Shown here piece by piece: positions 245-56,249 of a stretch of DNA of 56,954 bases (positions within the stretch are counted from its first letter, which is position 1; each line of letters opens with the position of its first letter). Source of the stretch: Alistipes sp. (GTDB lineage: Bacteria > Bacteroidota > Bacteroidia > Bacteroidales > Rikenellaceae); assembly GCA_017938765.1 (NCBI GenBank), contig JAGBAX010000019.1, positions 1 through 56,954 of the forward strand, in the 5' to 3' direction. The position numbers and the translations under genes were made by a program. Below the pieces are notes generated by a model that worked only from the letters and a program-made list of their open reading frames with translations, was not told the DNA's origin and ran no database searches.

Positions 245-372
245 ATTTTGTTGTCAGAGTGTGTCAGATACGGTGCATCGTGAAAAAAATCAGTGGCGGA
301 TAGTACTAAAAGGTACAGCCGCCACTGATTTTTAAGGGATGTGCCGTAGGTGGCACACTATCACGACAAAAT
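245..372 (-). repeat. Nested-hairpin element, copy A
   Basis: This is a 128-bp inverted-repeat element. Outer arms of about 34 nt (245-278 and 339-372) pair with several G-U-type transitions. Inside is a second hairpin, GTGGCGG...CCGCCAC, flanked by an A-run and a T-run so that it could terminate transcription in both directions. On the minus strand its tip reads CTGTAC-N6-GTACTATCC. The right arm touches the stop codon of the acyl-CoA ligase gene (372-2012). Copies of the same size and architecture lie at 41640-41767 and 55718-55847. Confidence 0.7.
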
Positions 373-29431: not shown

Positions 29432-29704
29432 ATGATTAAACCATTATCAGACAGAGTTCTCATTCTGCCAAATCCAGCAGAGGAGATTACCGCCGGAGGT
29501 CTAATTATTCCGGACACAGCAAAGGAGAAGCCACTGGCAGGCAAGGTTATTGCCGTAGGTCCTGGTACTAAGGATGTTACAATGGAGGTTAAAGAGGGCG
29601 ACGAGGTACTTTATGGCAAGTACTCTGGCACTGAGGTAACCTATGCAGGTACATCTTACATCATTATGAAGCAATCAGAGATTTTAGCAGTAGTAGAGAA
29701 ATAG
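29432..29704 (+). CDS. groS: Co-chaperonin GroES
   Basis: A 90-residue GroES, the lid of the GroEL chamber. It opens [17 protein letters not shown], has the mobile loop [19 protein letters not shown] (about 20-38) and [14 protein letters not shown] (about 62-75), and ends [12 protein letters not shown]. It is 224 bp upstream of groEL, an unusually long gap for groESL that is filled with dispersed repeats (29702-29910). Confidence 0.97.
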
Positions 29705-29785
29705 CCGTTGGCTATTAGCTATTAGCCATTAGCCTTATAGAGGTGTCGGCAAAGCCGACTTATATAAATCCGCATGGCGGATACC

Positions 29786-29790
<5 letters not shown>
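29702..29790. repeat. Twin-hairpin intergenic repeat
   Basis: Several GCTATTAGC/GCCATTAGCC units (29704-29733) are followed by two small hairpins, GTCGGC-AAA-GCCGAC (29745-29759) and ATCCGC-ATG-GCGGAT (29768-29782), joined by an AT-rich linker. The same arrangement, with loops TCT and AGA, is at 55521-55567. Stem sequences are the same and the triloops differ. Confidence 0.65.
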
Positions 29791-31556
<1,766 letters not shown>

Positions 31557-40261: not shown

Positions 40262-40300
40262 CGAGAAACCGCAGCATACTATAGCGTATGTGAGGATTTT
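40262..40300. repeat. Dispersed 24-bp motif copy
   Basis: GCAGCATACTATAGCGTATG followed by TGAG (40271-40294) recurs at 55655-55678 with one base different. Both copies are followed or preceded by TGAGGATTT. It contains the near-palindrome CATACTATAGCGTATG. Both lie in gaps after gene ends. Confidence 0.55.
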
Positions 40301-41613: not shown

Positions 41614-41639
41614 TTAGCAGTGGATAGTACTTGAACGTC

Positions 41640-41767
41640 GTTTTGAGGTTAGAGTGTGTCAGATACGGTACATCGTAAAAAAGAGCACCAGCGGATAGTA
41701 CTAAAGCGTACATCCGCTGGTGATATTTAAGGGATGTGCCGTAGGTGGCACACTATAACTTCAAAAC
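41640..41767 (-). repeat. Nested-hairpin element, copy B
   Basis: 128 bp, the same size as copy A. Outer arms (41640-41676 and 41731-41767) share GTGTGTCAGATACGGT and GATGTGCCGTAGGTGGCACA with copy A. The inner stem is CACCAGCGG / CCGCTGGTG, different from copy A but still fully paired, and carries the conserved tip (minus strand) ATGTAC-N6-GTACTATCC. The right arm abuts the stop codon of the PpiD-like gene. Confidence 0.72.
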
Positions 41768-43788
41768 TAGAAGTAGCCGACAGTATTATCCTCAACCTCC
41801 GCCAACTCCTGCACTGCATAGAATGCACGCATTGCGTTCTGCTCGGCTGCTGCCTGCTGCTTAACCTTCTCGGCCTCAACAGTCTGAGCCTCAGCCGCAG
41901 GGGTTACAGTGTCATTTACAAGAACATATACACCACTTGCGCCCTTAATTGGAGCAGAGAGCTTACCAGCCTCAAGAGAAGCGATAGCTCCGAGTACGCG
42001 TGGCTCTACGCCGATACCTGGAACGTAGTATGCGTCATACTTAACATTCTCATAGTTCTTAACCTCGCCCTCAGCGGCTGTAGCAACCTCCTCAATAGTG
42101 TTGCCAGTCATCTTAGAGGCAATCTGCTCAAACTTCTTGTCGCGCAGAAGAGTTGCCTTAATCTGATTAGCCACCTCGCTAACTGTGCGGTACTCGTTGT
42201 CATTGATACCTGTAAGAGTAGCAATTACATAGTGGTTGTTGTCAAGCTTGATAAGCTCAGAAACATCGCCCACCTTAGCCTTGTTAGCCCAGAATACAAC
42301 CTCCAGAGAGTGGCCGTCAATACCGCGCACCTCGCGAGCTGCGTGCTCAATATTAGCAGTGCGAGAAGACTGAGCCTGAGCAGTTACAGTTGCATCAAAG
42401 CCATCGTTTGCAGCGTTTACTGCAAAGAGGCTTGCAGCGTTGTGTACATCGCGCTGTGTCTGCTGTGAAGGAACGATTGGATAAACGAGGTTAGCGAGCT
42501 TATAGTGCTTCTGAATAGCGCTAACACCGTCAATCTTGAGAATCTGGATAACGTTACCCATAGTAACCTTCACTACATCACCCTTCTTCTTACCAACCAG
42601 TGCATCAGCAAACTCATTAGAGAGAGTAGAGTAAGCAATCTCGCCAATCTTACCTCCATCGGCAGCAGTCTCAGCTACAGAGTACTGTGAAGCCAGAGCA
42701 GCGAAGTCGCCCTTCTTTGCAACAGTCATAAGGCTGTCAGCAAGCTCAGTGTCGGTGTAGTTAAGAACAATATGGCTCAAGTTGAACTTCTCAGGAACGT
42801 TGCGTACATCAACTACGCGAGCAGCACGCCACTGGTCTGCAACCAGCGCTGGACCATATACCTTACCCTTTGTAAGAGTCTCCTTCTCCTCAGAGGTCAT
42901 CTGAGCAGCAGTGATATATGTCTGAGCTACAGAAGCATAACGATTCTCACGAGCATAAGCCTTAACGTCAGTTGCAGCAGCGAAAGTCTCTGTTGCAGCC
43001 TTAGCCTCAGCCTCTATAGCAGCCTTGTCAGCATCTGTAGGCAGAACCTCGTACTCAACATAAGAGATTGTGCGGTATGGAGTCTGCTTGTACTGGCTCT
43101 TGTGAGCGTTGTAGTAAGCCTTAATCTCGCTATCTGAAACATTTACCAGTGAGTCAGCAACAGTAGTGTAACGAGCAACTACATAACGGCCATTGTATGT
43201 GTTGTTTGCGCTCTTCACGCCGCGCTCAACCTCAAGGGCTGTTGCATAAGCACCCTTCTTTACAAGCTCCTGATACTTCATCATTGCGCGGTCAACATCA
43301 GCCTGCTTGCTAACGAAAGACCACATCTTCTGAGCCTGTGGGTTATTCTCCACCTGCTCTAGGAAAGCAGTCACAGCCTCAAGGCTATACTCGCCAGTCT
43401 GAGGGTTGCCAAAGATGCTACCAAAGACATTGCTTGCGCGCTCGCCGCGAACCATAGACTTGTGCTCTGCATCACCCACTGTAAGACCGAGCTCCTCAAA
43501 GCTTGGTACAAAGACGTGGTCAGTAAGCAGAATCTGCCAAGTGTTAGTCAGCGCCTGCTGAGCAGCCTGATCTGTGTTAAGCTCACCCATCTGAGACTTA
43601 ACATCGTCATAAGCGGCAAGGAACTCGCTGTAGTGGATATCCTCGCCATTGATAGAACCGACCTCAGGGTCGTTGCCAGTGAATCCCATCTCTGTCTTCA
43701 GAGAGAAGATAAACGCCAAAAGCGCGCCTGCAATAATTACAGAGAGCAGTACGCCGAATTTGGTTCTCATAGTATTCAAACTTACCAT
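41767..43788 (-). CDS. PpiD-like periplasmic chaperone/peptidyl-prolyl isomerase
   Basis: A 673-residue membrane-anchored protein of the SurA-N/PpiD type that helps fold exported proteins. One N-terminal helix (FGVLLSVIIAGALLAFIFSL, about 11-30) anchors it in the inner membrane. The SurA-N-like region follows (VGSINGEDIHYSEFLAAYDD, about 43-62). A parvulin-type domain lies at about 340-430 (NLSHIVLNYTDTELADSLM, then FAALASQYSVAETAADGGKI). A second, degenerate parvulin-like region may follow near 470-610. The length is typical for Bacteroidetes PpiD. It is the last gene of the coaX-side cluster, ending in nested-hairpin copy B. Confidence 0.88.
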   Translation of the reverse strand: MVSLNTMRTKFGVLLSVIIAGALLAFIFSLKTEMGFTGNDPEVGSINGEDIHYSEFLAAYDDVKSQMGELNTDQAAQQALTNTWQILLTDHVFVPSFEELGLTVGDAEHKSMVRGERASNVFGSIFGNPQTGEYSLEAVTAFLEQVENNPQAQKMWSFVSKQADVDRAMMKYQELVKKGAYATALEVERGVKSANNTYNGRYVVARYTTVADSLVNVSDSEIKAYYNAHKSQYKQTPYRTISYVEYEVLPTDADKAAIEAEAKAATETFAAATDVKAYARENRYASVAQTYITAAQMTSEEKETLTKGKVYGPALVADQWRAARVVDVRNVPEKFNLSHIVLNYTDTELADSLMTVAKKGDFAALASQYSVAETAADGGKIGEIAYSTLSNEFADALVGKKKGDVVKVTMGNVIQILKIDGVSAIQKHYKLANLVYPIVPSQQTQRDVHNAASLFAVNAANDGFDATVTAQAQSSRTANIEHAAREVRGIDGHSLEVVFWANKAKVGDVSELIKLDNNHYVIATLTGINDNEYRTVSEVANQIKATLLRDKKFEQIASKMTGNTIEEVATAAEGEVKNYENVKYDAYYVPGIGVEPRVLGAIASLEAGKLSAPIKGASGVYVLVNDTVTPAAEAQTVEAEKVKQQAAAEQNAMRAFYAVQELAEVEDNTVGYF

Positions 43789-55479: not shown

Positions 55480-55606
55480 TGTTGGCCGTTGGCTATTAGC
55501 CTTTAGCTGTTAGCCTTATAGAGGTGTCGGCTCTGCCGACTAATATAAATCCGCAGAGCGGATACCACTTAAAGGCTAACGGCCAATGGCTAATGGCTAA
55601 TGGCAG
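55480..55606. repeat. Twin-hairpin intergenic repeat, second copy
   Basis: GTCGGC-TCT-GCCGAC and ATCCGC-AGA-GCGGAT (55526-55563) lie between GCTATTAGCC-type units on the left (55490-55515) and their inverted forms GGCTAACGGCCAATGGC on the right (55575-55600). The whole forms a larger inverted repeat. In this copy the two triloops are complementary to each other. Confidence 0.65.
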
Positions 55607-55654
55607 AATCTGATTTTAGGTGAGGATTTACCAGGCACACAAGAAGCCGAGCGC

Positions 55655-55678
55655 GCAGCATACTGTAGCGTATGTGAG
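55655..55678. repeat. Dispersed 24-bp motif, second copy
   Basis: GCAGCATACTGTAGCGTATG then TGAG, one base different from 40271-40294. It lies between the twin-hairpin repeat and nested-hairpin copy C. Confidence 0.55.
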
Positions 55679-55717: not shown

Positions 55718-55847
55718 ATTTAGTCGTCAAAATGCGGTAGATGCTGTTGCTCAATGAAAAATGCCTGCGCAGGATAGTACACAAACAGTACAGCCCAGCA
55801 GGCATTTTTTATTAGCGGCAGCAGGTGCCGTATTTTCACGACTAAAT
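55718..55847 (-). repeat. Nested-hairpin element, copy C
   Basis: 130 bp with 34-nt outer arms (55718-55751 and 55814-55847). The arms differ from copies A and B except for short blocks such as GTGCCGTA, yet still pair with mostly transition-type differences. The inner stem (GCCTGC / GCAGGC) has another sequence again, is flanked by A and T runs, and has the conserved tip (minus strand) CTGTAC-N7-GTACTATCC. The right arm includes the stop codon of the SRPBCC gene. Confidence 0.7.
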
Positions 55848-56249
55848 TCTGTTAAAGGCGGAAGCAAACCCCTCTACCGCCTGATCAAGCCCCTTCTGGA
55901 TTTTACTGCCGACCATCATACGCATCATCATATTAAGCTCGGCGTGGAGAACCATACGGATGCGGGTGTCGGTTGGGGTAACCTCGTGGAGCTGAATCCA
56001 AAAGGCGAAGTCAATAGGTACACCGCCCTCGTCGCCAGTGATTTTAACATGCTTGCCCTCTACCTTGTCAACCATACGCAACTTTACGGTAAAACCCTTA
56101 ATCTTAAATGAGCAGGTATCCTCTGTGGCCTGCCACTCCTCCACCTTATCAGCCACAGCAGGCGTAAGGAGGTTGAAGGATGAGATAAAGGGGTAAATTT
56201 GCGCTGCCGACTTATAAATCTGGCACTGCTTTGATTCGTACTTCTCCAT
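55842..56249 (-). CDS. SRPBCC (polyketide cyclase/START-like) family protein
   Basis: A 135-residue single-domain protein with a helix-grip fold pattern: MEKYESKQCQIYKSAAQIYP (the first strand), FNLLTPAVADKVEEWQATED, then IDFAFWIQLHEVTPTDTRIR and MVLHAELNMMMRMMVGSKIQ in the long C-terminal helix. Such proteins bind hydrophobic ligands in an internal cavity. The ligand is unknown. It has its own promoter at 56281-56312 and ends within nested-hairpin copy C. Confidence 0.8.
   Translation of the reverse strand: MEKYESKQCQIYKSAAQIYPFISSFNLLTPAVADKVEEWQATEDTCSFKIKGFTVKLRMVDKVEGKHVKITGDEGGVPIDFAFWIQLHEVTPTDTRIRMVLHAELNMMMRMMVGSKIQKGLDQAVEGFASAFNRI

Follow-up and report, generated by a model that had tools for sequence, protein, structure and literature searches.

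attC sites are located at the 3' ends of cassette genes. According to one account of these sites (PMC2727003), the folded bottom strand is the active one, and structure and extrahelical bases are conserved while the sequence is variable. REPs are described as dispersed hairpins found mostly downstream of coding regions, the single-stranded REP being recognised by RAYT in E. coli, and the same source reports palindromic, CGTC-tagged REPs without a dedicated transposase in five phyla including Bacteroidetes and Spirochaetes (PMC3733652). In the window, i.e. the whole stretch of 56,954 nucleotides of Alistipes DNA analysed here, an initial annotation had pointed out three nested hairpins with a constant tip, all of which we found at the positions given in Table 1.

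Like REPs and BIMEs, the family to which these elements belong consists of dispersed gene-end hairpins with swings in copy number. Unlike the GTAG REPs, which are 20-40 bp hairpins with a GTAG tag at the foot, its members are ~130 nt long, conserved at the tip and locked in orientation to the gene. We rejected membership of the GTAG REP/RAYT group on account of this size, of the lack of such a hairpin and of the lack of a cognate Y1 transposase. Indeed, the signature of the RAYT-type Y1 transposases (PF01797) had no match in the window genome (87% complete) and was found in only one of 101 genomes of the genus, G075, which is itself devoid of tip matches. The CGTC-tagged REPs have stems of 8-9 bp, a CGTC foot and a CCA tail, and the family instead is nested and GTAC-tipped. 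With attC sites it shares the bottom strand as the preferred folder and the location at gene 3' ends, but attC sites combine a conserved foot (R boxes) with a variable tip, which is the reverse of the present arrangement, and the copies described here are mostly dispersed singly. As no integron integrase (TIGR02249) scored over the cut-off in any of 14 carriers, attC membership was also rejected; weaker tyrosine-recombinase matches were present in 13 of these carriers and likewise in all 14 control genomes.

Intrinsic (bidirectional) terminators resemble many of the copies, with a GC stem flanked by A/T runs at gene ends, and differ from the family by its second outer helix, its near-invariant tip and its antisense-biased fold. 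By eye, many copies of the window genome have a GC stem followed by a T-run, a feature that other subfamilies and the copies outside the genus show weakly or not at all. The family is also similar to MITEs in being short, non-coding, multi-copy and self-complementary. It differs from them in keeping its positions between species, and we saw neither fixed terminal repeats nor target duplications nor a parent transposase. Searches of Rfam 15 at gathering scores gave no match in the window, and only 5S rRNA and tRNA in the flanking DNA of ten further loci; at E values up to 10, no family came near the cut-off in six loci. The element itself thus has no Rfam match, in keeping with the annotation, which knew of no named family. 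A phage or plasmid origin was rejected: a blastn search with copy A against plasmid and phage collections returned no match, and eight pattern matches in viral contigs showed no nested hairpin by eye. No description of the hairpin family was recognised in sequence-string and topic searches of the literature, whose coverage was partial and left most subscription papers and all bioRxiv preprints outside. The combination of hairpin, tip, exchange and antisense fold fits none of the repeat families compared.

Table 1. Hairpin elements, tips and related features of the window (CM, covariance model)
Feature	Position	Strand	Remarks
Copy A	245..372	+ (better-folding strand, antisense to upstream gene)	CM match 246-374, 131 bits; copy used in model
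Tip of copy A, GGATAGTAC-N6-GTACAGCC	298..320	+	
Copy B	41640..41767	+	CM match 41641-41769, 117.5 bits; copy used in model
Tip of copy B, GGATAGTAC-N6-GTACATCC	41693..41715	+	
Copy C	55718..55847	+	CM match 55719-55849, 114.6 bits; copy used in model
Tip of copy C, GGATAGTAC-N7-GTACAGCC	55772..55795	+	
Class III tip of second hairpin directly beyond copy C	55654..55678	-	
Class III tip	40270..40294	-	
Isolated half tip GGATAGTAC beside copy B	41622..41630	+	Possible remnant of an earlier element

Structure, covariation and spread in the genus

Hereafter, 'sense' refers to the strand that carries the upstream gene, which is minus in the window, and 'antisense' to its complement (plus). The plus strand of each window copy folds end to end into one interrupted hairpin, with energies of -71.7, -73.5 and -71.4 kcal/mol for A, B and C, respectively (RNA parameters), and the sense strand folds more weakly (-55.0, -58.3 and -56.3 kcal/mol, RNA energies). 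The tip is indeed constant, reading GGATAGTAC-N6/7-GTACA[GT]CC on the plus strand of all three, with ATCC in B and AGCC in A and C. The inner stems differ among the three copies as had been noted, and copy C differs from A and B in its arms as well. It had also been claimed that an arm overlaps a minus-strand stop codon in each case, and this is so: the last base of copy A lies within the TAA of ORF 372-2012 (acyl-CoA-ligase-like, under curated cut-offs), copy B shares one base, the last of the TAG, with ORF 41767-43788 (weak peptidylprolyl-isomerase match) and copy C includes the whole TAG of ORF 55842-56249.

The annotation had read these differences as pairing kept despite sequence change, to be checked by scoring covariation. 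Across 188 inner stems, each of registers 1 to 10 shows every one of the four Watson-Crick pair types. For 58 inner stems that are <70% identical, 78.4% of positions pair, versus 31.8% with reshuffled partners (maximum 38.2%), the former figure being lowered by a few chance matches (from L200 and L201) still in the set. Pair-keeping double changes were found for 21 of the 30 predicted consensus pairs in a 30-sequence alignment. The helix of the tip also covaries, reading GTAT/ATAC in three copies of the window genome (L335, L346 and L347) and at L136 and L393. Over the ~130 nt of the element, the tip is conserved and the foot variable, the feet of the arms varying among copies. A selected structure, with pairing that withstands extreme sequence change, is supported by the covariation of both inner stems and arms.

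The looser pattern GGATAGTAC-N2-14-GTAC has 35 matches in the window genome and none when reversed as a control, indicating that the tip pattern occurs beyond chance; at least one of the 35, L008, has no hairpin and is a chance match. A covariance model, also proposed in the annotation, was built from 30 copies, 24 of them from the window genome. Its search of this 2.1 Mb genome gave 75 matches at E values up to 0.01, which represent 44 distinct sites, many more than the initial three. The other 31 matches are the same sites on the opposite strand, 24 of the 44 sites had served to build the model, and the weakest site, C24:167825, was counted without inspection. One of the sites (C26:154484; L351, G000) is a short version that looks as though it had lost its inner hairpin, the outer arms enclosing just a small loop. 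Relatives, which were likewise to be searched, also carry the tip: a stricter tip pattern matched 52 of 101 genomes of the genus including that of the window, with up to 77 matches per genome and none for the control, and it matched the window genome alone among 395 genomes of the phylum. In a named collection, 104 of 114 stretches among the matches listed are labelled Alistipes or Rikenellaceae. Tandem arrays were observed at L220 (6470-6923, G028:C16; five copies ~108 bp apart) and L221 (1416-1952, G077:C37; three copies ~260 bp apart).

Other tip classes and repeats accompany these elements. The class III tip, CTCACATACG-N-AGTATGCTGCG (also given as CTCACATACG-N-AGTATGCTSCG), has 17 matches in the window genome, the only one of 198 sampled phylum genomes in which it was found; class III hairpins are also present at the GAPDH ends of other members of the genus. 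Hairpins of the same layout with the class II tip GGGAAATAC-N-GTATGTCCC were seen at gene ends of L104 and L094. Outer arms of the class I type sometimes hold class III, class IV or GTAT/ATAC tips. In the second hairpin beyond copy C, the gene-side arm looks, by eye, as if replaced by copy C. The window also contains dispersed intergenic repeats (104-158, 198-252 and 29842-29896; 29704-29800 and 55485-55581) of the types TGCCGAGGCGGAGCAG... and TTAGCCATTAGCC... / GTGTCGGC...GCCGAC, some of which adjoin hairpin elements.

Gene-end position and folding strand

We collected 228 distinct tip matches, 29 in the window genome, 168 in the genus and 31 elsewhere, the latter including chance matches. 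With the crude ORF caller used, 32 of the 228 lie within a called ORF, and a further 16 lack an upstream ORF in the stretch retrieved. For those outside ORFs with an upstream ORF called, the upstream gene is in the sense orientation in 28/28 cases in the window genome, 123/134 in the genus and 15/18 elsewhere. Among these sense cases, the tip is located 39-66 nt past the stop codon in 26, 92 and 7 instances, respectively, i.e. 118 of 151 for the window genome and genus together. The location at gene 3' ends that had been proposed from three copies therefore extends to the family, as elements that are orientation-locked to the upstream gene and begin at its stop codon.

In the window genome, upstream genes whose products score over curated cut-offs include those for GAPDH, class II aldolase, malate dehydrogenase, EF-G2, uracil phosphoribosyltransferase, pyrophosphatase and GMP synthase. 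Pyruvate:ferredoxin oxidoreductase and methylmalonyl-CoA mutase are matched by partial proteins below equivalog cut-offs, and no family was assigned to 10 of the 33 proteins scanned at the thresholds applied. These upstream genes are presumably well expressed. As judged from GC skew, 54 of 72 elements are on the leading strand, versus 259 of 422 among the remaining genes of these loci (Fisher p 0.034), and in a 320-kb stretch the leading-like strand holds 11/11 class I matches versus 157/263 ORFs; high expression, if so, would by itself explain this skew.

Class I tips were found by eye within 260 nt downstream of 5S rRNA in 7 of 29 readable loci. Also by eye, 5S rRNA is followed at L247, L260, L268 and L274 by a terminator and then by an inverted copy of it, which at L247 includes part of the 5S 3' end. 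At rRNA operon ends with such an inverted terminator, the element, where present, lies between the two copies (by eye). An origin of the arms by inverted duplication of the coding end was rejected for protein genes, the longest inverted match being 5.0 versus 5.3 in mismatched controls (means, n=117).

Folding of the two strands was compared for 118 genus copies (26 from the window genome), taken from the 228 tip matches as those 30-75 nt past a sense stop codon with at least 130 nt available. The antisense strand is the better folder in 105 of them, with no ties and a mean difference of 10.9 kcal/mol (RNA energies), although the copies are akin to one another and such counts are not independent trials. 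Antisense folds contain 476 G.U pairs, versus 138 in sense folds. With DNA energies, the antisense strand folds better in 114 of the 118 (110 for the inner part and 112 for the outer part), and the outer part carries the larger antisense-sense difference. The inner stem alone is near-symmetric by register (92 G.T versus 74 A.C, registers 1-11). Control gene ends without tips in the 320-kb stretch show the opposite tendency, antisense being the better folder in 91 of 247 and, among those with strong hairpins, in 20 of 43. The antisense bias is present with both positive (47/53) and negative (18/18) GC skew, indicating that it is tied to the gene and not to replication. It thereby weakens a purely lagging-strand ssDNA model, a mechanism that does not need a strand bias tracking gene orientation. 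The better-folding strand of the family is usually antisense to the mRNA, which is a new observation. Altogether, the comparisons show that it is the bottom strand, i.e. the complement of the mRNA, whose predicted fold is best kept. Its tip is near-invariant, and its inner stems and outer arms change freely provided that they pair.

Turnover and carriers outside the genus

The GAPDH gene end was read in 30 genomes, the best 30 of 97 with a match. It harbours a class I element in 4, a class IV in 1, a class III in 8, a relic in 1 and an ordinary terminator in 16, with six of the class III cases, the relic, the class IV element and the ordinary terminators sorted by eye. The GAPDH ends of G000 and G098 have common outer arms and different inner hairpins. 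Between G098 and G028, identity is 99.2% over 2.5 kb and extends to the TA of the stop codon, past which nothing aligns, with no visible duplication at the border; this is the only clean case of a stop-codon border. Such a border was also found in 29 orthologue pairs, where coding constraint partly produces it, third codon positions being only ~60-80% identical in that region. Neither a target-site duplication nor a clean empty site was seen.

Class I elements of G098 and G028 were compared with the orthologous gene ends in fully read parts of the window genome, which harbour class I in 7 of 8 comparisons for G098 and 6 of 7 for G028, i.e. 8 of 9 distinct gene ends are occupied. The comparisons window genome-G028, window genome-G098 and G098-G028 used samples picked for elements and are biased towards occupancy. 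The base rate on that contig of the window genome is 11 class I matches per 263 ORFs. In 10 of the 13 occupied comparisons the 3' flanks are 67-78% identical. Non-orthologous copies of the window genome have a median flank identity of 72% (5-95% range 64-90%), and the median is 58% for ordinary flanks against elements. The orthologous flanks are thus no more alike than non-orthologous copies, so that the positions are older than the contents, and the high conservation of positions argues against frequent transposition. These alignments show elements that start at the stop codon and whose gene position persists between related species, with contents that are exchanged.

Among the matches listed, ten are in genomes other than Rikenellaceae, six with a hairpin and four without; the latter (L072, L075, L111 and L141) were discarded by eye as chance matches. 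Desulfovibrio-like, Spirochaetaceae and Chitinophagaceae genomes contain nested hairpins that bear the same tip, the Chitinophagaceae carrier belonging to the same phylum as the genus of the window. The looser pattern has 6 matches in Desulfovibrio, 6 in Chitinophagaceae, 5 in Spirochaetaceae, 4 in a 'Proteobacteria' bin, 3 in Humidesulfovibrio and 1 in a 'Deltaproteobacteria' bin, and the reversed control matches twice each in the Deltaproteobacteria bin and the Chitinophagaceae genome and never in the other four. Single matches outside the genus therefore prove little, and the evidence resides in the common nested fold. As the arms are unlike those of the window genome, contamination by the latter is unlikely.

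Nineteen distinct full-tip copies from outside the genus were scored further, leaving out L200, L201 and L203 (chance by eye), L202 (one tip base different), L215 and L218 (contig ends), L217 (duplicate) and places without retrieved loci. The antisense strand is the better folder in 19/19, with the piece length picked per group. The upstream ORF is in sense orientation for 16 copies and antisense for 2, with none for the remaining one. The tip is 42-66 nt past the stop codon in 9 of the 19, and four scored Chitinophagaceae copies are 162-735 nt from the nearest called sense stop. By eye, the copies inspected outside the genus have no comparable T-run after the inner stem. That unrelated groups share this tip points to one putative recognition factor.

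Possible mechanisms and significance

The annotation had envisaged a bidirectional terminator, an RNA-stability element or a MITE-like mobile hairpin. The first of these roles fits, as ordinary terminators occupy the same place at 16 of the 30 GAPDH ends, and it leaves unexplained the tip shared with genomes outside the genus and the antisense bias. Because the mRNA strand is mostly the poorer folder, an mRNA stability element is not supported as stated. The family is self-complementary and multi-copy as expected of a mobile hairpin, but a simple MITE is doubtful since positions are kept between species and the ends are not fixed terminal repeats. The reading that we favour, tentatively, is a REP-like exchangeable gene-end element that often doubles as a terminator, with a putative factor recognising the conserved tip of the folded bottom strand. 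This strand, as ssDNA or antisense RNA, would be recognised at its tip by a trans-acting protein, whose activity, or else gene conversion between copies, would spread the elements and swap their modules. The host might keep them at gene ends because many would also work as (bidirectional) terminators replacing ordinary ones. Searches for a Y1 transposase and an integron integrase identified no such trans factor.

Its strongest rival, which we nonetheless regard as unlikely, is a boundary element acting through antisense RNA. RNA polymerase entering a well-expressed gene from its 3' end would trigger the hairpin, with the antisense transcript folding, terminating at the inner hairpin and being bound or cut at the tip, thereby insulating the gene without the need for mobility beyond gene conversion. 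A bias that follows gene orientation at any GC skew, the G.U load on the antisense strand, the conserved positions and the occurrence of central-metabolism and translation genes among the upstream genes are consistent with such a boundary, as are the T-runs seen by eye on both sides of the inner stem in many copies of the window genome. Yet the inspected copies from outside the genus lack a comparable T-run, no conserved promoter was seen by eye outside the arms, and a terminated RNA would be devoid of the far outer arm although the larger energy difference is in the outer part. It is less probable still that the elements are intrinsic terminators of the ordinary bidirectional kind, which recombination would have copied from one gene end to another, the tip being a loop inherited by descent. 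Such copying would agree with ordinary terminators at the same place in orthologues, with the A/T-flanked inner stems of many copies and with the conservation of orthologous positions, but it would hardly yield the same tip in Desulfovibrio-like, Spirochaetaceae and Chitinophagaceae genomes, an antisense bias this strong, which is absent from other gene-end hairpins, or covarying outer arms, which termination does not need.

We consider very improbable a retro-exchange, in which a reverse transcriptase would copy the mRNA 3' end into an antisense single-stranded cDNA that folds and replaces copies during replication. It would unite the antisense strand, the stop-codon border and the well-expressed genes and is in line with the leading-strand excess of elements, but this signal is modest, and a preference of well-expressed genes for the leading strand would produce it as well. 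Least probable of all is an mRNA 3'-UTR element folded in the messenger that would affect stability or translation. The start at the stop codon is in its favour, as is one report that E. coli REPs within 15 nt of the stop codon lower translation (PMC12306157), and the poorer folding of the mRNA strand in 105 of 118 copies is against it.

Beyond the favoured REP-like element, a broader possibility, somewhat unlikely in our view, is a system that would be distributed horizontally over at least four bacterial groups and whose putative protein would read the antisense GTAC-tipped hairpin and would install, keep and swap hairpins at stop codons. If true, this would be a new class of gene-end elements structured as single strands, with several tip classes making up a recognition code of their own. 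Whether intergenic palindromes at gene ends are mobile, structural or terminators is an old puzzle, for which this family provides unusually strong comparative evidence in the form of pairing, strand preference, kept positions and swapped contents. The putative reader of the hairpins would be directly testable in culturable relatives.
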